From contig NAJO01000023.1 in NCBI GenBank assembly GCA_002077065.1, positions 434,001 to 498,000 of the forward strand: a stretch of 64,000 nt of DNA, written 5' to 3'. The DNA is from Cryoendolithus antarcticus. Taxonomy: Eukaryota; Ascomycota; Dothideomycetes; Cladosporiales; Cladosporiaceae. The notes beneath the pieces were generated by a model. It made no database searches and was not told the origin of the DNA. It saw nothing but the letters and a program-made list of their open reading frames with translations. This document shows positions 33,135-44,358 of the stretch, one piece after another; position 1 is the first letter of the stretch; the number at the start of each line of letters is the position of its first letter. The translations under genes were made by a program, and so were the position numbers.

Positions 33135-36100
33135 ATGGTGTTGGAAAGCCTGGTGGCCAACCTGCTGAACAGGTTCCTGGGCATGTACGTCCGGAACTTC
33201 GATCCAAAGCAACTCAATGTCGGGATCTGGTCTGGTGAGGTGAAGCTCACGAACCTGGAGCTACGGCGAGAGGCCCTGGATCAATTCCATCTACCACTCA
33301 ACGTGATAGAGGGTCACATAAGTTCCTTGGTCTTGCAGATACCGCTTTCCAACCTGCGAGGGAAGCCAGTGCGGATCAATATCGAAGACATCTTCTTGCT
33401 CGCGGCCCCGAAGGAAGATGAAGAGTACAATGTGGAGGAAGAGGAGAATCGGGCGCACAGTGTCAAGATGGAGAAGCTAGACTCTGTTGAGATGCTGAAG
33501 GAGCGCAATACAGAGGGCATGTCAAAGGAGGAGCAGGCGAAGAATCAGTCCTTCACTGCTGCCTTGACGACCACCATCATCGACAACGTCCAGATCCAGG
33601 TGAAGAATGTGCACATCCGATATGAAGATAGTATCTCCACGCCGGGCCACCCTTTTGCCGCAGGTCTCACACTTCAGGAGCTCAGTGCCGTGTCAACTGA
33701 TGAGAACTGGCGGCCGACTTGGATACAAAGCACGAGTGACACAACACACAAGCTAGCCACACTTGGCTCGTTGGCGTTGTATTGGGACACAGACACGAAG
33801 CTGCTTGGCACTGGTACAGGACAACAAGATGCCAAAGCTCAAGGCATCGACCATGACGACATTCTTAAGAAGTTCCGCGACATGATCGTGAAAAGTGACG
33901 ACCCTGGGATCTCCGAGCATCAGTACATCTTGAAGCCAGTCTCTGGACGAGCTGGCGTCGAAATGGACAAGAGTGGCAAGACGGACCGACCCAAGACGAA
34001 AGCTCGTCTGCTCTTCAACGAGCTCGGCTTCGTACTTGACGATCAACAGTACCGAGACGTGCTCATGCTGGTGGATCTGTTCCACTACTTCATCCGGCAT
34101 CAAGAGTACAGGAAGCTTCAGCCAGCCAAGCGGCCGAAGGAGGATCCAAAAGCCTGGCTGCAATTCGCTGGCAACGCAGTGCTTGATCGTATCCACGATC
34201 GCAATAAACAATGGAGCTGGGCGAACATTGCTAGTCGTCGGGATGACCGCAAGCGCTACATCGAGCTGTTCAAGAAGAAAAAGAAGGAGACGCCGCTCAT
34301 TCCAGAGGAGACGAAAGAGCTAGAGGCACTTGAACGTAAGCTCTCGTACGAAGATCTTCGATTCTGGCGATCTCTGGCTCGCAATCAATTGCGCAAGGAG
34401 AACGTCGGTGTGAAGAAGGCACCCGCTAAAGCGACATGGGGCTCATACATTTGGGGAGCTAAGAAGGAAGAAGAGACTTCGGCAGATGACGGTCAGATGA
34501 CCGAGGAGCAACGGAACGAACTCTACAAAGCCATTGATTTCAGCGAGAAGGAGCAGCTCGCGGAAGCTGTCGACATGCCAAAGGAAGCTATCAAATTGCA
34601 GGTCGATATGAACCTCAAGACTGGTGGCTTCACACTACGAAGGGATCCTCACGGCAAGAAGACTGATATATTGCACCTTTCCTTCGATGACTTCTCGACA
34701 GAGTTTGTGCAAAGGACTGACTCGACTCTCGTCGACTTGAGTCTCGGCGGCATGCGACTATTTGATGGTAGCACAGAGGGCAATTTGTTCGAACAAATGC
34801 TGCGAGTAAAGGACGCGAGTCCAGTACCAAAAGGCAAACGCATTGAGGAGCTCGGAGACGATGACAAGCCCAAGAACGATGAGACTGACGAGAAGATGGA
34901 AGAGTCTGACGGAGACGAGGACGACGATCCTTTCTTCGCGCTCCAGTTCGAGCAGAACCCGATTGATGGGCACGCGGACACAGCTGTAACGGTCAAGCTA
35001 AAAGCCATGGAGATCATCTACAACCCGAATTTTGTCGTGCAGGTGACGAAGTTCTTCAAGCCTCCAACACAGCATATGGAGTCGATCAATGCCCTCATGG
35101 AGTCTGCGGGCTCGACAGTCGAGGGCTTGCGGCAGCAGACTCGGGCTGGCCTCGAGTTCGCACTGACAGAGCATAAGACGGTAGATGTGCAATTGGATCT
35201 GCAAGCTCCATTGATCATCGTCCCCGACTCGGTCATCAAAAAGAGTTCGATCTGCCTCATTCTTGACGCAGGTCACATCAGCGTCCGAAGCGACTTGATC
35301 GACAAGAAGACGTTGGCCGATATACAGAGCAAGCAGAAGCAGCAGTACACAGACAAGGACTTCAAGCAACTTGAGACTCTAATGTACGACAAATTCCGGG
35401 TGAAGTTGCAGGACACACAAGTACTCATTGGAAGCACCGTCGAAGACACGCGCAAGACTCTGGAGCCCGACAACAACTCACGCGCGTACCACATTGTCGA
35501 TCGTATCAATATGGACTTGACTATCGCAGCGTGCATTATTCCCAAAGCAGGAGACTTGACTAAGTTCAGCATCACGGGTCATCTTCCAGTGCTACACGCC
35601 ATGATCTCGGACTCCAAATATAAGTCGTTGATGAAGCTGCTTGACTTCGCGATACCGAAAATGGATGACGCTCCTGACAAGGCCCGTCCTATGTCCCCTG
35701 AAGGCCAGAGAACTCGTCCTAGGCAGAAGAGCATCATGGACCAGAGCGGAAGACCTAGGCAATCTAGCATCTCGTCGACCGACGACGACTCACTCGAAGC
35801 CAATGAAAAGGCAAGTGAAGTGGCGCGCAAGCGCGATCATGATAAAGCAGTACAGTCATCATCTGGCAAGCACGAGGACAAGAGCAAAGGAGATGTCAAT
35901 CCTGAACAGCGTAATTTCGAGTTCAAGTTCACTGTCGACAAGCTGCAAGGCTCGCTGTACCGATCTGATCCTGACGGCAAAAAGCCAGATCAGCTTCTGG
36001 TCGATCTCATCGCAGAGACTTTTGGCCTCGAGTTCTATCAACGAGCATACGACATTGTAGCTGACGTCAAGCTGCGAACATTCACGGTCGAAGATCACGT

Positions 36101-39100
36101 TGAGGCATCACCGCAACCGGAGTTCAGGAACCTGATCTCGAGTGAAGATACCGATACTGATAAGAAGCAAGATCTACTTTCTGTACACTTCCAGAAAGTC
36201 AACAATGATCATCCAGAATTCAAGACCAAGTATGAAAGCATTGCAACCAATCTGGACGTTGCGTTGTCCACGATTAACCTGCTGGTCACACGGAAGACTT
36301 TACTTACACTGCTGGACTTTGTCATGGTCACCTTCGCGGGAGGTGACAATGCACAGGCAGATGACAGTAAGCCCAAACAGCTCGAGGGTCACGATGAGGC
36401 ACAGACAGAGACGAAGAAGCCACAGGACATGGACAAGATTCGTATAAAGGCGCAGCTCAAGCGTGTGGCCGTGATTCTCAATAACGATGGGATTCGCCTG
36501 GCGACACTCAGCTTGAGCTCGGCCGAAGTCGGTGTCTTGCTCATGGGCAAGTCGATGAGTGTCACCGCGAAGCTCGGGAATCTTGGGCTGGTCGACGATA
36601 TCAACCAGGGTGTGGATGAGAAGTCTGCACTTCGCCAGATCGTGTCGATACAAGGGGACGACCTCGCCGACTTCCGCTATAAGACATTCGACGCCGCAGC
36701 CAAGGAGTACCCCGGCCACGACACCGCCATCTTCCTCCGAGCTGGTTCCCTGAAGGTCAACTTCATCACAGAGCCTCTTCGTAAGATCATGGAGTTTGGA
36801 GTCAAGTTTGGCAAGATGCAGGCGATCTTCAATGCTGCTCGAGAAGCTGCCGCGAACCAGGCGACCAAGGTTCAGGAGTCAGCCAGCAAGATGCACTTTG
36901 ATATCTTGGTCAAAACACCAATCGTGTCCTTCCCAAGACTGATTGTGACTGACAGCCCAGAGCGCGACCTGCTCACGGCATATCTGGGTGAGATATATGC
37001 TAGCAACAAGTTCGTTCCTATCGATGACTCGAAAGACGCCGACACTGTGAACAAGTTGTCCGCTGGGATTCACAATATTCGACTTACATCCAGCTTCCAC
37101 TACGATGGCGAAAAGTCTGAAGAGCTTGAGCTCATCGATAAAGTCGACCTCGACTTTAACATCAGTCAAGCTGACCACAAGATTGGGCGCGAGCGGCCTG
37201 ACACTGAGATCGAAGGAGCGATGAGTAACATCAACTTACGCATTACTGAGGGGCAATTGAGATTCATCATGGAGCTCACCCGATCGATACCATCGGCGTT
37301 CGCGCTCGAATCGGACGAGGCACTTGAGGAGGAAGTTAAGGAGGAGATCCCGAACTCTGTCGTCAAACCTGCAAAGGCAATTGAGGACAAGCCAGCAACG
37401 AAGAAGACTGAACCAGAGAAACCGTCACATCTCGGCCCCGAGCTCGGGACGGATTCCGAGACGTGGACGAAGCTGGACTTCATCTTCAAGATCGGCGCTG
37501 TCGGACTGGAGCTGGTGTCTGGACCAGTCGATGCGCCTATCGGTGATCTTGAAGCGGCGAGCTTGTCCAAGTTCTCCTTGAATGAGACGAGTGTGAAGGT
37601 GCGGATGATCAGTGACGGGGCACTGGAGAGCGAGCTGTTGGTGCAGTCGTTCACGATCACAGACACGAGAACGACCGAGAAAAACAAGTTCCGCAAGATC
37701 ATGTCGCTCATCAACACGGATGTCAAGCAGCAATTCATGGCCAGCGTGTCGATCTCAGGCGGGGATGAGAAGAACTTGATTGCTCTGCTAACAGTCGACA
37801 GTCCAAGAGTCATATTGGCGCTTGACTACCTCTTCGCTGTGCTCAACTTCGTCAACAAAGGTCTGGAGCAAGAGACGCCATTGGTCGTCGAAGAGGAGAA
37901 AGAGGATAGCACAGAGCCAGAGAGCGACGCTGCTAGCGTGTCGACACAAGAGCTTGTCAAACGCAAGACGGATCTGCATGCGGCGAAAGAGGACGCGAAA
38001 CCTGCTGATAAGAGCGCTATGAGCATCTCGTATCGGGTGAACGTAGTGGATGCACAGGTTGTACTCATTGCGAATCCTGCTATCAGCAACTCTGAGGCAA
38101 TCGTGCTCGGCACTAAGCAGGTGCTCGTCTCGCAACAGCATGCGATGACTCTACAAGTCGACAAAGTTGGCATGTTCCTTTGCCGCATGGACCGGGAGAA
38201 CGACACGAGGCTGCGCATCTTGGACGACTTTAGCATACAGACATCACTGGACATGCAGTCGCAAGGCAAGGGGTCTTCACTTATGAGCATACATGTTGAC
38301 ATCGAGCCGCTTGTGTTGCGCCTGTCGCTCCGAGACATCCTACTTGCGATGCAGATCGTCAACAGGGCGTCAGCCATGTCCTCGGGCAATGATAACAAGA
38401 AGCTCCAAGATGAGGGGCCGAAAAAGCTGGCACAGATCAAGGGCACCTCGACGAAGCCGAAGGACGTGAAGTCAACTAAGTTGACTGCTGCTTCTACGTC
38501 GAAATTTCAGGCGAAGACTATCAGTACCGCCAAGACAGGAGCGAAGAAGCCGGAAGACAAGAAGGTTGCCGGCTCTGCTGTCATGAAGCGCGAAGAGATG
38601 AAGATTAAGATGGACGGCATCCGCGTGGTGCTCATCGGCGACTTGCATGAGCTGCCGATGCTGGATTGGAGCGTGAAGAAGTTCGACGTCGACGTTCGCG
38701 ACTGGACTGGCAACATGAGCGCGGATACCAGCATCGACACGTTCTTCAATGTGTACAATTTTTCGAAGTCGGCCTGGGAGCCGTTGATCGAGCCGTGGCA
38801 GTTGGGCTTTCACATGACCAAAGAGACTGGCCCGGACAAGCTGGCTGTTGAGTTGTACTCACGCAAGTCGCTTGAGCTTACTATCACATCATCGACGATC
38901 GCACTGGCATCAAAGTCGGCGCAGTTCCTGTCATCGGATGAAGATGTGCTATCAAAGCCTCGAGGCAACGATGCACCATACCGCATTCGCAACTACACAG
39001 GATTTGAGCTCGACGTGTGGAGCAGCGGCGAGGCCGATGAGGACGGTCAAGCTGCGAAGCTTGAAGACGGCGAGGAGAAGCCTTGGCGATTCGAGGATCC

Positions 39101-42100
39101 GACAACGACCCGCGAGACGCTGTCGCCAGAAGGTCAGACTGGTCTCATCGGCATCAAGCTTGAGGGAAGTGGCTTTGACAGTATTGATCGCATCCCGGTG
39201 AACCGCGAGGGCGAGTCGCTGTACAATCTGAAGCCACGGAAGGACAAGGTGCAGCATCGTATGCTTGTCGAAATTACCCTGGGTGCGGACAACGTGAAGT
39301 ACATCACTCTCCGTTCACCGCTGCTGGTGGAGAATCACACTCAGATCCCTCTGGAGCTCGGCGTCTATAGTCCAGATGAAGGGCACTTGCTCAAGATCGA
39401 GAAGATCGCGCCGGGAGAGTCGAGACCAGCACCTGTTGGCGCCGCGTTCATGCATTCGCTTGTGCTGAGGCCTGACCAAGGCTTCGGATATACTTGGTCG
39501 AATGAGAAGCTATTCTGGAAGGATTTGCTGAAGAGGCCAGTCAGGACATTGACTTGTCAGGGCGAGTCGAACGACAGCTCTCCTCCGTTCTACTTCCAGA
39601 TGCAGGCGTCATTTGACAAGAACAACCCTTTGACAGCGTACGTATCGAGGCTCACTGATGATGCTGCTGAATTTACTGACTCTGATAATAGAATCTACCC
39701 CTACATGCGCATTCGCGTCTCGGCGCCTGTCGAAGTTCAGAACCTCCTGCCTTACGACTTCAAGTATCGAATTTATGACAAGAACACCAAGAAGGACTGG
39801 ACCAACTTTCTCCGCAAGGGCGGCGTCAGTCCTGTACATGTCGTTGAGCTCTCCCACCTACTGCTCATGAGCGTGGACATGCAGGACACGCCCTTCAAAG
39901 CCAGCGAATTCGCCATCATCAACTCGCCTAACAATGAAGACTTCCGCCGTGAGCGCACAGTGACAGTCAAAGATCAGAGCGGACTTGATCTACGACTGAA
40001 GTTGCATTACTACAACATTCCCGAAAGTGGTGGTGCGTTCAAGATCACGATCTATGCGCCATATGTCATTCTCAACCGGACTGGCTTGGAGCTAGATGTT
40101 AGGAGCAAAGCTTACTTTGGAGGCGCTAAATCGGCTGCGGGTCAGACAACGTTCACAGACACTGACACCGATGCTGGCAAGCCAAAGCCGTTCATGTTCT
40201 CGTTCCCGAGCGATGATAGGAAGAATCGAGCACTACTGAAGGTCGGCGAATCTTCGTGGAGTCAACCTGTGAGCTTTGATGCCATTGGCGCTGCAATAGA
40301 CGTCAAACTCCCTGCAGACTCCGGGCGATCGGAGATGCACGCTGGATTGACTGTCACTGAGGGCGATGGCAAGTACAAATTGACCAAAGTAGTGACAATC
40401 ACGCCGCGCTTTGTGGTAAAGAACAAGCTCAGTGAGGCAATCCAGATCCGCGAGCCTGGCTCTTCCGAGGCAACGTCACTTAAGCCTGGCGAGCTACACC
40501 CGCTTCGCTTCCTGAAGCAGAGCACAGGCGCTCAGCTCTGTCTATGCTATCCTGGAGTGAACAACACTTGGTCCTCGCCGTTCAACATTGACAACACTGG
40601 CAGTGTGCACGTCAAGATCGCCAAGGCTGGCGAGCGACAGCAGCTCGTCCGTATCGAGATCTTGATGGAGGACTCAGCTATCTTCATTCATCTCAGCAAG
40701 GAGACAAAGCACTGGCCCTTCTCGATGCGCAATGAGAGCGATCAGGAGTTTCTGTTCTGGCAGGCTAATCCTAATGTCGACGATGATGAGGAGGATCGGT
40801 CGTCGGGTTGGAAGCCGATCCGCTATAGGTTGCCAGCTCGCAGCATCATGCCGTATGCTTGGGACTATCCAGCCTCGAAGAACAAGAACCTGATACTAAG
40901 TGCAAACGGTAAAGAGAGGCATGTCAAGATCGCTGAGATTGGCAATTTGATACCGTTCCGCATCCCGGCGCAGGCGACTGGAGGTCAGCAACGACAGAAG
41001 ATCATTGATCTGAACGTGATTGCGGATGGACCCACTCAGACGCTTGTGTTCTCGAACTACAAGCCATCCAAGAGCTTGTACAAGCAAAAGGCCGGGTCTG
41101 CTAGCGCATCTACAAGCACTGGCTTCGAAGTCAAGGATCAAGATGACGATGTGACGATGAAGGCTGGCATCCGCTTCGCTGGTATTGGTATCTCGCTCGT
41201 CAATTCTCAGCTCCGCGAACTGGTCTACGTGACTTGGAGAGACATCGAGCTCAAGTACACGGATTCTCCACTCTACCAGACTGTCGCCTTGACTGTCAAG
41301 TGGATCCAGATCGACAACCAGCTGTACGGTGGGATCTTCCCGCTTATCTTTTACCCCAGCGTTGTGCCAAAGACTGGCAAGGAGATGGAGGCGCATCCGA
41401 TCTTCAGATCCGCGATCACTCGGGTGAAGGACGACTCGTACGGCGTGCTCTACATCAAGTACTTCACCTTCCTCATGCAGCAAATGACTATTGAGATTGA
41501 CGAGGACTTCATCTTCGCTATGCTGGACTTCACGAAGGTTCCTGGAGCCTCTTGGTCTGAGGAGAAGGAGGGGCAGCTTGTGCCCGAGACGCTGGATGTA
41601 CCAGAGCCGCAACAGGAGCAGTCTGGACAGGATATCTACTTCGAGCTCCTGCATCTCCAACCCATGCAATTCGATCTGTCATTCGTGCGCACCGAGCGTA
41701 TCAATGCAGAGGATACTGGCAGCTCATCGACAAACCCCTTCATGTTTGCTGTCAATGTATTGACCATGTCGATCGGCAACGTCAACGATGCGCCGATCCG
41801 CTACAACGCTTTGATGCTCGAGAACGCACGGGTGTCAGTCAATGCACTCATCAGTAACATCAAGAGCCACTACGTGCAAGAGTCGCTACGACAAGTACAC
41901 ATTGTCATTGGGTCCGCCGACTTCCTTGGCAACCCAGTGGGTCTGTTCAACAATATCAGCTCTGGCGTAGCAGATATTTTCTATGAGCCATACCAGGGAC
42001 TGGTCACAGATCGGCCACAGGATCTTGGTGTTGGCATCGCGAAAGGCGCTAGTAGCTTCGTCAAGAAGTCCGTCTTTGGTATCTCCGACTCTGTCTCGAA

Positions 42101-42899
42101 GTTCACTGGCAGCATCAGCAAAGGTCTCGCAGCTGCAAGCATGGACAAGGAGTTTCAGGACTCCCGCCGCAATGCCCGCTCACGCAACAGACCGAAGCAC
42201 GCATTGTACGGCATCACATCTGGTGGTAATGCTTTTGCCAGCAGTCTGGCGAGTGGGATTGGAGGGCTTGCCAGACAGCCGCTTCAGGGTGCTGAGAAGG
42301 AGGGTGCTGCTGGCTTTGTCAAAGGAGTCGGTAAGGGCCTGCTCGGTCTTGCGACCAAGCCGGCTATTGGCGCCTTCGATCTCGCATCAAACATGGCTGA
42401 AGGCGTGAAGAACACCACCACAGTCTTCGATCAAGAGGGTCTCGATCGTGTACGTCTGACTCGCTTTATCGGCAGCGACGGCATAGTTCGACCATACTCC
42501 CAGCGTGAAGCTCTTGGTCAATTCTGGCTCAAGACAATGGATAATGGCAAGTGCTTCAACGAGTCGTACATCGCTCATCTCGAGCTCAACGCTGGTTCGA
42601 AGGGCGACGATCCGCAATCGCCTGTCAGCCGCCAGACTTCGGAGGCAAGTATGTTGGTGCTGGTCACGTATAACAGCATCATGCTCGTGCGGGCCAAGAA
42701 GTTGACGACCGAGTGGGATGTGCCGTTGAAGGATGTGCAAACTATCTCGAAGGAGCGGACGGGTATGAGCATCACATTGAAAGGAGGGACGAATGGCCCG
42801 TTCATTCCTATTGCGGATGAGGGGAGTCGCAATTGGTTGTATAAGCAGGTCGCGGTGGCGGTGAACGCGTATAATGATCGGTGGAATGCGAAGGGTTGA
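33135..42899 (+). CDS. VPS13: VPS13, bridge-like lipid transfer protein
   Basis: The reading frame is open for 9765 nt from ATG 33135 to TGA. I place one 54-nt intron inside it (39638-39691: GTACGT donor, TTTACTGAC branch region, AATAG acceptor). Removing it joins NPLTA to IYPYMRIRVSAPVEV and leaves 3236 aa. The N-terminus is the chorein motif (LVANLLNRFLGMYVRNFDPK; NVGIWSGEVKLTNLELR). The long RBG groove region follows, then the VAB/SHR-binding region (RTGLELDVRSKAYFGG and neighbours) and the ATG2-like C-terminal helices (LGNPVGLFNNISSGVADIFY; GVGIAKGASSFVKKSVFGIS). The end is a PH-like domain (RLTRFIGSDGIVRPYS). VPS13 moves bulk lipid at contacts between ER, mitochondria, vacuole and endosome and acts in sporulation and organelle biogenesis. 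Length matches the family (yeast about 3144 aa). Confidence 0.96.
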   Translation: MVLESLVANLLNRFLGMYVRNFDPKQLNVGIWSGEVKLTNLELRREALDQFHLPLNVIEGHISSLVLQIPLSNLRGKPVRINIEDIFLLAAPKEDEEYNVEEEENRAHSVKMEKLDSVEMLKERNTEGMSKEEQAKNQSFTAALTTTIIDNVQIQVKNVHIRYEDSISTPGHPFAAGLTLQELSAVSTDENWRPTWIQSTSDTTHKLATLGSLALYWDTDTKLLGTGTGQQDAKAQGIDHDDILKKFRDMIVKSDDPGISEHQYILKPVSGRAGVEMDKSGKTDRPKTKARLLFNELGFVLDDQQYRDVLMLVDLFHYFIRHQEYRKLQPAKRPKEDPKAWLQFAGNAVLDRIHDRNKQWSWANIASRRDDRKRYIELFKKKKKETPLIPEETKELEALERKLSYEDLRFWRSLARNQLRKENVGVKKAPAKATWGSYIWGAKKEEETSADDGQMTEEQRNELYKAIDFSEKEQLAEAVDMPKEAIKLQVDMNLKTGGFTLRRDPHGKKTDILHLSFDDFSTEFVQRTDSTLVDLSLGGMRLFDGSTEGNLFEQMLRVKDASPVPKGKRIEELGDDDKPKNDETDEKMEESDGDEDDDPFFALQFEQNPIDGHADTAVTVKLKAMEIIYNPNFVVQVTKFFKPPTQHMESINALMESAGSTVEGLRQQTRAGLEFALTEHKTVDVQLDLQAPLIIVPDSVIKKSSICLILDAGHISVRSDLIDKKTLADIQSKQKQQYTDKDFKQLETLMYDKFRVKLQDTQVLIGSTVEDTRKTLEPDNNSRAYHIVDRINMDLTIAACIIPKAGDLTKFSITGHLPVLHAMISDSKYKSLMKLLDFAIPKMDDAPDKARPMSPEGQRTRPRQKSIMDQSGRPRQSSISSTDDDSLEANEKASEVARKRDHDKAVQSSSGKHEDKSKGDVNPEQRNFEFKFTVDKLQGSLYRSDPDGKKPDQLLVDLIAETFGLEFYQRAYDIVADVKLRTFTVEDHVEASPQPEFRNLISSEDTDTDKKQDLLSVHFQKVNNDHPEFKTKYESIATNLDVALSTINLLVTRKTLLTLLDFVMVTFAGGDNAQADDSKPKQLEGHDEAQTETKKPQDMDKIRIKAQLKRVAVILNNDGIRLATLSLSSAEVGVLLMGKSMSVTAKLGNLGLVDDINQGVDEKSALRQIVSIQGDDLADFRYKTFDAAAKEYPGHDTAIFLRAGSLKVNFITEPLRKIMEFGVKFGKMQAIFNAAREAAANQATKVQESASKMHFDILVKTPIVSFPRLIVTDSPERDLLTAYLGEIYASNKFVPIDDSKDADTVNKLSAGIHNIRLTSSFHYDGEKSEELELIDKVDLDFNISQADHKIGRERPDTEIEGAMSNINLRITEGQLRFIMELTRSIPSAFALESDEALEEEVKEEIPNSVVKPAKAIEDKPATKKTEPEKPSHLGPELGTDSETWTKLDFIFKIGAVGLELVSGPVDAPIGDLEAASLSKFSLNETSVKVRMISDGALESELLVQSFTITDTRTTEKNKFRKIMSLINTDVKQQFMASVSISGGDEKNLIALLTVDSPRVILALDYLFAVLNFVNKGLEQETPLVVEEEKEDSTEPESDAASVSTQELVKRKTDLHAAKEDAKPADKSAMSISYRVNVVDAQVVLIANPAISNSEAIVLGTKQVLVSQQHAMTLQVDKVGMFLCRMDRENDTRLRILDDFSIQTSLDMQSQGKGSSLMSIHVDIEPLVLRLSLRDILLAMQIVNRASAMSSGNDNKKLQDEGPKKLAQIKGTSTKPKDVKSTKLTAASTSKFQAKTISTAKTGAKKPEDKKVAGSAVMKREEMKIKMDGIRVVLIGDLHELPMLDWSVKKFDVDVRDWTGNMSADTSIDTFFNVYNFSKSAWEPLIEPWQLGFHMTKETGPDKLAVELYSRKSLELTITSSTIALASKSAQFLSSDEDVLSKPRGNDAPYRIRNYTGFELDVWSSGEADEDGQAAKLEDGEEKPWRFEDPTTTRETLSPEGQTGLIGIKLEGSGFDSIDRIPVNREGESLYNLKPRKDKVQHRMLVEITLGADNVKYITLRSPLLVENHTQIPLELGVYSPDEGHLLKIEKIAPGESRPAPVGAAFMHSLVLRPDQGFGYTWSNEKLFWKDLLKRPVRTLTCQGESNDSSPPFYFQMQASFDKNNPLTAYVSRLTDDAAEFTDSDNRIYPYMRIRVSAPVEVQNLLPYDFKYRIYDKNTKKDWTNFLRKGGVSPVHVVELSHLLLMSVDMQDTPFKASEFAIINSPNNEDFRRERTVTVKDQSGLDLRLKLHYYNIPESGGAFKITIYAPYVILNRTGLELDVRSKAYFGGAKSAAGQTTFTDTDTDAGKPKPFMFSFPSDDRKNRALLKVGESSWSQPVSFDAIGAAIDVKLPADSGRSEMHAGLTVTEGDGKYKLTKVVTITPRFVVKNKLSEAIQIREPGSSEATSLKPGELHPLRFLKQSTGAQLCLCYPGVNNTWSSPFNIDNTGSVHVKIAKAGERQQLVRIEILMEDSAIFIHLSKETKHWPFSMRNESDQEFLFWQANPNVDDDEEDRSSGWKPIRYRLPARSIMPYAWDYPASKNKNLILSANGKERHVKIAEIGNLIPFRIPAQATGGQQRQKIIDLNVIADGPTQTLVFSNYKPSKSLYKQKAGSASASTSTGFEVKDQDDDVTMKAGIRFAGIGISLVNSQLRELVYVTWRDIELKYTDSPLYQTVALTVKWIQIDNQLYGGIFPLIFYPSVVPKTGKEMEAHPIFRSAITRVKDDSYGVLYIKYFTFLMQQMTIEIDEDFIFAMLDFTKVPGASWSEEKEGQLVPETLDVPEPQQEQSGQDIYFELLHLQPMQFDLSFVRTERINAEDTGSSSTNPFMFAVNVLTMSIGNVNDAPIRYNALMLENARVSVNALISNIKSHYVQESLRQVHIVIGSADFLGNPVGLFNNISSGVADIFYEPYQGLVTDRPQDLGVGIAKGASSFVKKSVFGISDSVSKFTGSISKGLAAASMDKEFQDSRRNARSRNRPKHALYGITSGGNAFASSLASGIGGLARQPLQGAEKEGAAGFVKGVGKGLLGLATKPAIGAFDLASNMAEGVKNTTTVFDQEGLDRVRLTRFIGSDGIVRPYSQREALGQFWLKTMDNGKCFNESYIAHLELNAGSKGDDPQSPVSRQTSEASMLVLVTYNSIMLVRAKKLTTEWDVPLKDVQTISKERTGMSITLKGGTNGPFIPIADEGSRNWLYKQVAVAVNAYNDRWNAKG

Positions 42900-43591
42900 G
42901 CGTGAGTGCTTTGTGGTGACCTGGTGATGCAGGATGGACGACTGCATAGCGTGGTATTTGCATTGGAGAATGAGAGATGCGATGTAGTAATGTTAGCAGA
43001 GTTTTGATCAGATCATTATGCGTGCGTTGTATAGGCCATTCCCGTTTCTACCCAGCCGCTCACCTCGCTGCGGTGAGAGCGTGTCCAGGCCTGGGAAAGC
43101 AGAGGTATATTTGAGCACTTCGATGATGGAGCCCGGGTCGTTCGTTTTATGACACGTGAGCCCAGATCTGCTCCACTGAGATTCTCGGCCATCGCGAGAT
43201 CCAAATGATGCGGCTGCATAGGAGTTCCATATGGCATCTCGGAAGTGACGTTCTGCGTACTTTGAGCTGCACTTTCCTGCTGACTTACTCGCTGTTGCAG
43301 CTGCTTTGGTGATGGTGTGAAGTCAAGAACGCTTTCCTAAGGATCGGTATCATACGAGTGGCGAGCTGAAGAGGCATTTGATGTACGTATGTAGGCAGTC
43401 CAAAGAACGAAAGTGCATCAAAGTGAATCGCGTGTCGAGAGCTTGACCAATCCCGAACTCGCTGTCGAGCGACGTTGCCATTGTCTGCCCAGCGCCCTTT
43501 ATTTCACCGTCACCCGTATGAGCAGAAGCACAATACTCCTCTTCTCCATGCCGTCCCGCAGAGCGAGACAGCGATGATGAGAAGCGTTCTT
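42900..43591. other. Convergent intergenic region between VPS13 and the U2 snRNA gene
   Basis: About 690 bp holding the VPS13 3' flank and the U2 3' flank. The frame at 43350-43661 (-) runs into the snRNA and is not a gene. Nothing else seen. Confidence 0.4.
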
Positions 43592-43832
43592 CGCGTCGCA
43601 AGGCGGCAGTGCAAGGCCAAGGACACGGTGCAAGGATGCTGTGAGGAAGCTCAGGGAGCACCTCGCTGGTGCGAAAAATAAGTATAATCGTAAATCGCCC
43701 GTGGGCGAGTTTCAGCGATTAAACTGAAAAGAACAGATACTGTGGAATTGTTAGCATGCTGTAAAGATGATTGAGAAAGAAGGGTTGACTTGCCTACACT
43801 TGATCTAAGCCAAAAGGCAAAGAGTTGCTGGA
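43592..43832 (-). ncRNA. U2 spliceosomal snRNA, split by an intron
   Basis: Read on the minus strand, the 5' exon (about 43832-43794) gives stem-loop I, TTTGCCTTTTGGCTTAG, and then ATCAAGTGTAG. The 3' exon (43739 on) gives TATCTGTTCTTTTCAGTTTA. Together they match the highly conserved U2 core, including the branch-point recognition element GUAGUA. A stem-IIa-like hairpin (TCGCC/GGCGA, 43708-43695), an Sm-like site ATTTTTCG (near 43679-43672), a GCACC/GGTGC hairpin (43672-43658) and a terminal stem-loop (CGTGTC/GACGCG, 43627-43592) with a TTGCACTGCC loop follow in the expected order. Without the intron the RNA is about 187 nt, the usual U2 size. The 5' end is set by analogy and is uncertain by several bases. 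U2 pairs with the intron branch site in the spliceosome. Confidence 0.88.
43740..43793 (-). other. mRNA-type GC-AG intron inside the U2 snRNA gene
   Basis: 54 nt separate GTGTAG from TATCTG, which are contiguous in U2 of other eukaryotes. The insert starts GCAAGTC after AG, the consensus for GC-AG introns (AG|GCAAGT). It has a pyrimidine-rich middle and a GCTAAC branch site at 43755-43750, and ends CCACAG 11 nt after the branch A. Length and signals match the protein-gene introns in this window. Precise removal regenerates canonical U2. Confidence 0.85.
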
Positions 43833-44358
43833 GAAAAAAGGAAAGCAGATTCAGACTAGAAGGGAAGGGGAATATGTACCAGCAATCGAGCGCCAAGCCG
43901 CAGCTGCACAGTCATCAGCTGACGCCTCAGGATTTCAGGCACAGATGTTTGCGTCTGCTCAATGATGCTCAGATGTCGTCGCAATGACTTGGGGCGTGTT
44001 CGTGTGCTCCAATTCGTTTTGCGAGGAGTCGTCAGATGCCCTTCTCTTATATACAATGTTAGAAGTCCTACCAATACTGAGGTTCAGCATCTTTCACGCC
44101 CTGCTACACGCAACAGCGAGTCCACGTGACCTTCGCCCTTCTACACCGAACGGGGCGATAATCCGCAGATGTTCACCGTACTTGGAAAGGCAGTATGATC
44201 ACAATGCTTCTCTCTGTTGTGGGAAAGCTGCTTGATACACTTCTTTTTGTCATTGTCTCATGAGAGCTTTGCTATTCCTCTCACTCAACCACCCACAGAC
44301 TGTACACAGTTTCGTTACATGTCATGTCAGTCGCCTGACCCACCTTGGTATATTGCAT
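43833..44358. promoter_or_regulatory. U2 5' flank and 3' flank of the AGP2-like permease gene
   Basis: On the minus strand a TACATATT element lies about 40 nt upstream of the proposed U2 start, and a stronger TATATAAG lies at 44053-44046, about 215 nt upstream. A pyrimidine tract ending TTTTTTCTCCAG directly abuts the U2 5' end. This leaves open a longer precursor or a second, leader intron. No protein gene is seen. Confidence 0.4.

Follow-up and report, generated by a model that had tools for sequence, protein, structure and literature searches.

Spliceosomal-type introns in the U2 and other snRNA genes of Cryoendolithus antarcticus, one of them inside the branch-recognition bases of U2

That new introns can arise by reverse splicing has classically been argued from introns in the genes of spliceosomal RNAs, whose presence there is usually explained in this way. 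To our knowledge, the recorded cases are few and old. In the basidiomycete yeast Rhodotorula hasegawae the U2 intron reportedly sits a short way downstream of the branch-recognition stretch; the U1, U5 and U6 genes of this yeast are said to have introns too. That the U2 snRNA gene of R. hasegawae has an mRNA-type intron goes back to Takahashi et al. (1993, Mol Cell Biol 13:5613), cited in PMC2586383; an earlier note on the locus discussed here had mentioned precedents in basidiomycete yeasts, and this is one. For fungal U6 introns there is the work of Canzler et al. (2016) and, for S. pombe U6, of Tani and Ohshima (1989), cited in PMC5832005. The passages of PMC5832005 on fungal U3 snoRNA describe introns that are short, occupy several positions, cluster in the 5' functional domain and are mostly GT-AG and rarely GC-AG; in some species, paralogues differ in whether they have one. 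Among the matches listed for a phrase search on introns in snRNA genes, there was only work on S. pombe (the capping enzyme Bmc1, and U6) and unrelated literature.

The genome of the Antarctic rock fungus Cryoendolithus antarcticus shares with R. hasegawae a spliceosomal intron in a U2 gene. Here, however, the host is an ascomycete (Dothideomycetes, Cladosporiaceae), the U2 introns occupy three positions among paralogues, one of which lies inside GUAGUA, there are GC-AG introns, duplicates differ in intron position, and U4 has introns as well. As in the fungal U6 genes, we see spliceosomal introns in snRNA genes that were repeatedly gained, and both U6 copies have one; whereas the known system concerns U6, in this genome U1, U2, U4 and U6 are affected jointly. 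The U3 introns are a further parallel, but U3 is not a component of the spliceosome.

We analysed a stretch of 64,000 nucleotides, which we call the window. One of its proteins has its best match in B0A48_01440 of C. antarcticus, at 99% identity over 76% of the query. The only Rfam family that reached its gathering score across the window was U2 (RF00004), with 84.4 bits compared with a cut-off of 46 (E = 3.4e-15); the gene lies at 43592-43828 on the minus strand. The match begins within the intron, because the true exon 1 lies beyond it. Read along the minus strand, the order is ...CTTTGCCTTTTGGCTTAGATCAAGTGTAG, then GCAAGTCAACCCTTCTTTCTCAATCATCTTTACAGCATGCTAACAATTCCACAG, then TATCTGTTCTTTTCAGTTTAATCGC..., where the middle segment is the insert. 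The locus contains the following features:

43889..43901, minus strand: upstream element GCGGCTTGGCGCT, like the GCGCCTTGGCT that precedes several other U1 and U2 copies at a distance of about 67-80 nt
43794..43828, minus strand: U2 exon 1 (stem I, GATCAAGTGTAG); CTTTGCC...GTGTAG matches six intron copies, and the 5' end is uncertain by a few nt
43740..43793, minus strand: GC-AG spliceosomal-type intron of 54 nt (GCAAGT, GCTAAC, CACAG), with position and donor as in loci L015 and L018
43592..43739, minus strand: U2 exon 2 (TATCTG..., stem II, Sm-type site TTATTTTTCG, 3' stem-loops), with an uncertain exact 3' end
43541..43583, minus strand: 3' element TTCTCATCA (also TTTTCATCA), a variable hairpin and TGGAGAAG, just past the 3' end of the snRNA

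The insert lies between 43739 and 43794 and splits GTGTAG|TATCTG. It starts with GCAAGT, its donor, and finishes with GCTAACAATTCCACAG; the acceptor is CAG, and the branch site GCTAAC has its A 12 nt (inclusive) from the 3' end. When the insert was excised in silico, the branch-recognition region GTGTAGTATCTGTTCTT was restored, and the first 60 nt became identical to those of six other intron-bearing U2 copies, which have their inserts here or elsewhere. Since excision yields this identity, the insert is more than a chance resemblance to an intron. In the alignment, the Sm-type site follows stem II and precedes the 3' stems. The earlier note had thus correctly described a U2 snRNA gene, an mRNA-type GC-AG intron of 54 nt with donor, branch and acceptor at the exact point of exon continuity, and a cut inside the branch-recognition bases (GUAGUA). 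The intron signature it saw is real, but it understated the phenomenon: there are nine insertion positions across U1, U2, U4 and U6, and they vary between duplicates.

Two of the listed features recur at other snRNA loci. The 3' element follows 10 of 10 U2, 11 of 12 U1 and 2 of 2 U4 loci, as counted with a pattern of our own and without a chance control. It is a probable 3'-end processing signal common to U1, U2 and U4, and perhaps serves an RNase III. The upstream element, again counted with our own pattern, occurs at five of ten U2, seven of 12 U1 and both U4 loci and is a possible promoter element. The window also has an uninterrupted frame of 3254 aa for the lipid-transfer protein VPS13 (33135-42899, plus strand), which is separated from the U2 gene by about 0.7 kb.

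In the assembly (46.97 Mb, 149 contigs) we found at least ten U2 loci above the Rfam cut-off, which form five duplicate pairs; all locus counts obtained with Rfam are lower bounds. The U2 loci other than the two intronless ones score between 65.5 and 112.7 bits, intron copies being scored with their introns included, and the scores of the intronless two fall within this range. Eight of the ten loci have one intron each, at one of three positions, and two (L014 and L017) have none. Numbered from CTCTTTGCC, the positions are:

Position A, after nt 20 (GGCTTAG|ATCAAG): L009, L010, L011 and L012, GT-AG
Position B, after nt 42 (TGTTCTT|TTCAG): L013, GT-AG
Position C, after nt 31 (GTGTAG|TATCTG): L015, L016 (the window copy) and L018, GC-AG

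The donor GCAAGT is common to all three position-C inserts, and the intron of L011 has the acceptor GAG. After excision, the first 60 nt are identical in seven of the eight intron-bearing copies. The exception is L018, the duplicate of the window copy on contig C73, which lost one base at the junction and in which four of the ten varying pairs of the consensus fold are broken; this copy is clearly decayed. We did not find a canonical intronless U2 copy among the ten loci. A genome search with the pattern TTTTGGCTTAG(A/G)T(A/C) gave eight U2 loci and one isolated site (C57:461316), which adjoins a Myb-like reading frame; by eye it is unrelated, and we rejected it as a U2 site.

For the position-A duplicates, the exons are constrained while the introns drift. 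L009 and L010 are identical at 174/177 exon positions, 45/57 intron columns, 101/145 upstream and 111/146 downstream positions; for L011 and L012 the respective values are 175/177, 36/53, 99/141 and 95/148. Taken together, identity amounts to 98-99% in exons, 68-79% in introns and 64-76% in flanks. For the window copy and L018 (exon 159/179, intron 35/54) the contrast is weaker than in the other pairs, the partner being decayed. In the consensus fold of the eight copies, none of the ten varying pairs is broken in the window copy, which also has the only double change, from A-U to C-G, with the stem kept; two pairs are broken in L011/L012 and one in L013/L015. Gene conversion could help to keep the U2 exons alike.

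The two intronless loci have to be considered as the possible source of all U2. L014 and L017 (92.1 and 81.9 bits) retain the branch-recognition stretch and the Sm-type site, do not differ from one another anywhere in the first 60 nt, and by eye pair stem II by way of changes on both sides. If they make the U2 of the cell, the intron-bearing loci, including the one in the window, might be silent or decaying, as L018 clearly is. We find this improbable. The first 60 nt stayed identical in seven intron copies while introns and flanks drifted, the 3' element is retained at every U2 locus, and L014 and L017 differ from the intron copies at 14 of 60 positions of the 5' end (46/60 are shared with L009); their predicted single-sequence folds, unreliable as such folds are, do not show the usual U2 layout. 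That the window copy is alive is suggested by its 60-nt match, the absence of broken varying pairs, the double change, and the retention of the shared 3' and upstream elements; the decay of its duplicate counts against it. Judging from the sequence, we are confident that the window U2 gene is genuine and probably working, that its 54-nt intron would be removed by existing spliceosomes, and that it belongs to a three-position family with intron turnover. The primary transcript would carry the GC-AG intron within the branch-site recognition sequence, and it would become U2 when existing spliceosomes excise the intron. We infer such excision for the introns of the other snRNA transcripts as well; both U4 loci and both U6 loci that we found have introns. 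One suggestion of the earlier note has to be given up: with ten loci, this is not the sole U2 gene. A strict loop in which U2 depends on itself is not supported either, as L014 and L017 are divergent but intact-looking and could supply U2 alone.

We compared the flanks of all 28 loci, and all 28 pair up: six U1 pairs, five U2 pairs and one pair each for U4, U6 and RNase P. It follows that these regions are duplicated, whether through doubling or through hybridisation. For other black fungi, a passage of PMC7767062 describes genomes that are duplicated or possibly hybrid; Cryoendolithus is not mentioned in the passages of PMC11412873 or PMC7767062 that concern us. U2 introns that share a position are alike beyond shuffled sequences in nine of nine pairs, across loci and duplicates (at most one of 100 shuffles reaches the observed value); the position-C inserts alone give three of three pairs, with 0 of 100 shuffles. 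Positions A and C thus each look like one old intron common to several loci. Among the pairs of introns from different positions, two of 19 (L009/L018 and L013/L018) are reached by at most one of 100 shuffles and the remaining 17 by 7 to 85. L013 and L015 are duplicates by their flanks, yet L013 has the intron at B and L015 at C. Most simply, the C intron was lost from L013 and the B intron gained after the two split; an ancestor with both introns is also conceivable. For at least one pair of U2 loci, the intron was changed after the duplicates had separated.

In total, we count 16 introns at nine positions in U1, U2, U4 and U6, five of them with GC donors. In the 15 introns that we tabulated, the donor is GT or GC, the last two bases are AG, and a branch-like motif lies at a distance of 11-15 nt from the 3' end (a loose motif, without chance control). 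U1 has 12 loci, none of which attains the Rfam gathering score (E values of 2.8e-14 to 3.7e-4). Seven of them (L041-L047) are uninterrupted, three are cut inside ACUUACCU, within the 5' splice-site recognition sequence ACTTACCT, and L051 and L052 (contigs C90 and C124), a pair of divergent U1-like loci, have no ATACTTACC 5' end that we could recognise. The introns of U1 and U4 are:

U1 L048 (contig C13): cut ATACTTACC|TTG, GT-AG
U1 L049 and L050 (contigs C46 and C73): cut ATACTTAC|CTTG, GC-AG
U4 L055 (contig C106): two introns, after nt 6 and 46, of 105 and 58 nt
U4 L056 (contig C86), duplicate of L055: one intron after nt 65, of 52 nt, and neither of the L055 introns

The intron positions of the duplicates L048 and L049 are one nucleotide apart; of the duplicates L045 and L050, only L050 has an intron. 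Once spliced, L048 and L050 are the same as the intronless L045 over 134 nt, and L049 differs at two positions. The 5' half of the U4 copy L056 is divergent. Both U6 copies have an intron after nt 75, which contains GTTCGAACCCC, a sequence that in our view resembles a pol III B box. All nine positions presumably fall in, or border, segments that pair with other RNAs during splicing, and none in the 3' structural stems. As a non-spliceosomal comparison we took RNase P, which has two duplicate copies with full-model matches of 377 and 374 nt; by eye we noticed no intron in either. Two candidates for U5, L053 and L054 (RF00020, 43.9 and 42.5 bits with a cut-off of 40), were rejected, since by eye they are the end of a protein-coding frame. 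We were not able to find a true U5 reliably: in the genome, one loop pattern led to two unrelated places and another to none.

A different kind of link between U2 and introns appeared when we searched the genome for the branch-recognition stretch GTGTAGTATCTGTTCTTTT. Exact matches occur in the four type-A U2 genes and in the first introns of two genes for the U2 partner protein U2A' (Pfam LRR_9, 6.8e-38; the best PDB sequence match is U2A', 5e-45):

C2:553538-553556, minus strand: U2 antisense in U2A' intron 1, locus L057
C80:123586-123604, plus strand: U2 antisense in U2A' intron 1, locus L060

The perfect antisense of GTGTAGTATCTGTTCTTTT(C) extends over 20 nt in one U2A' copy and 19 in the other. 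By simple arithmetic, about 0.0003 exact 19-mer matches are expected by chance on both strands of 47 Mb. With up to three mismatches there are 16 matches, of which seven with three mismatches look like background; a reversed control pattern gives eight. In viral contigs there were no matches for the antisense pattern and none for the intron-split U2; a U2 pattern matches seven bacterial records. The duplex energies of the U2A' introns with U2 are reached by none of 500 shuffles for each copy. Between the duplicates, a block of 37 nt around the antisense has zero differences, compared with 9/89 in the entire first intron, 20/65 columns in the next intron and 15/54 fourfold sites. A normal branch site has a bulged adenosine, which this duplex lacks, and for this reason we read the antisense as a putative regulatory contact with U2; the branch site is likely GCTCAC, 3' of the antisense stretch. 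Possibly, the antisense acts as a U2 sensor, and binding of U2 might either promote or block splicing.

The intron of the U2 gene L013 (C2:741917-742160) contains a near-complete antisense of U2's own exon 1, exact over 12 nt (TGGCTTAGATCA) and longer with mismatches; GTGTA/TACAC extends it in the predicted exon-intron hairpin. For the 12-nt match alone p is 0.003 (300 shuffles), this being one of 68 intron-target tests. The duplex energy of the intron with U2 is -33.6, compared with -19.9 +- 3.3 for shuffles, none of 500 reaching it, and the predicted fold of the precursor, intron onto exon 1, amounts to -38.5 kcal/mol over 125 nt compared with -23.0 for the window copy. In the shuffle test, no excess pairing with U2 was seen for the remaining seven U2-gene introns. 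Quite tentatively, one may imagine a circuit of U2 supply in which mature U2, which most copies would yield only once spliced, pairs with the antisense in the U2A' and L013 introns; the amount of U2 would then govern how its partner protein and its own precursor are spliced. In the literature on U2 and U2A' autoregulation, none of the matches listed describes such control in its title or the start of its abstract.

How did the introns arise? They may have entered by reverse splicing, or a similar accident at the RNA level, while the snRNAs sat in spliceosomes. We infer this kind of entry from the placement of the introns toward the 5', RNA-pairing parts of the snRNAs and from the lack of a source copy for the one intron that was searched: the window intron with its flanks, compared with the genome at E up to 10, matched only itself. 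The placement fits reverse splicing into working snRNAs; it neither proves it nor separates other routes of gain.

Among these routes, local inverted duplication or template switching would produce an inverted copy of an exon, and the L013 intron, with its near-complete antisense of the adjacent U2 exon, is what one would expect from it. We nevertheless consider this route unlikely, as the antisense is seen in one of the eight U2-gene introns tested, with no excess in the seven others, and an antisense retained for regulation would look identical. Still less probable is an origin from mobile elements of the introner-like kind with snRNA genes as their targets. Introner-like elements are reported from Dothideomycetes (abstract of PMC4457414), same-position U2 introns are alike, and the two different-position pairs that shuffles rarely reach could be counted in their favour; however, many near-identical copies in other genes, which one would look for in this case, were absent for the window intron at E up to 10, the other 17 different-position pairs are unremarkable, and common descent explains why same-position introns are alike. 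Finally, the assembly is a draft in 149 contigs, but an artefact is hardly credible, given that inserts with splice signals occur at eight of ten U2 loci, on eight separate contigs, and in duplicates that match in their flanks.

Such introns were already known from snRNA genes, one U2 case among them. The interest of the present genome lies in the number of positions, in the fact that U1 and U2 are both cut through their recognition bases, and in the ways in which duplicates differ, which concern the presence of an intron (U1 L045/L050), its position by one nucleotide (U1 L048/L049), a different position altogether (U2 L013/L015) or the whole set (U4 L055/L056). Since duplicates differ in this way, gain, loss and sliding of introns are directly testable in relatives. 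The possible U2-sensing introns add interest, and we know of no comparable gauge of U2 levels from elsewhere. For the fungus itself, these introns would mean that the spliceosome depends partly on itself to obtain its RNAs, and through the U2-antisense intron of the U2A' gene cells may have a way to gauge their U2 levels.
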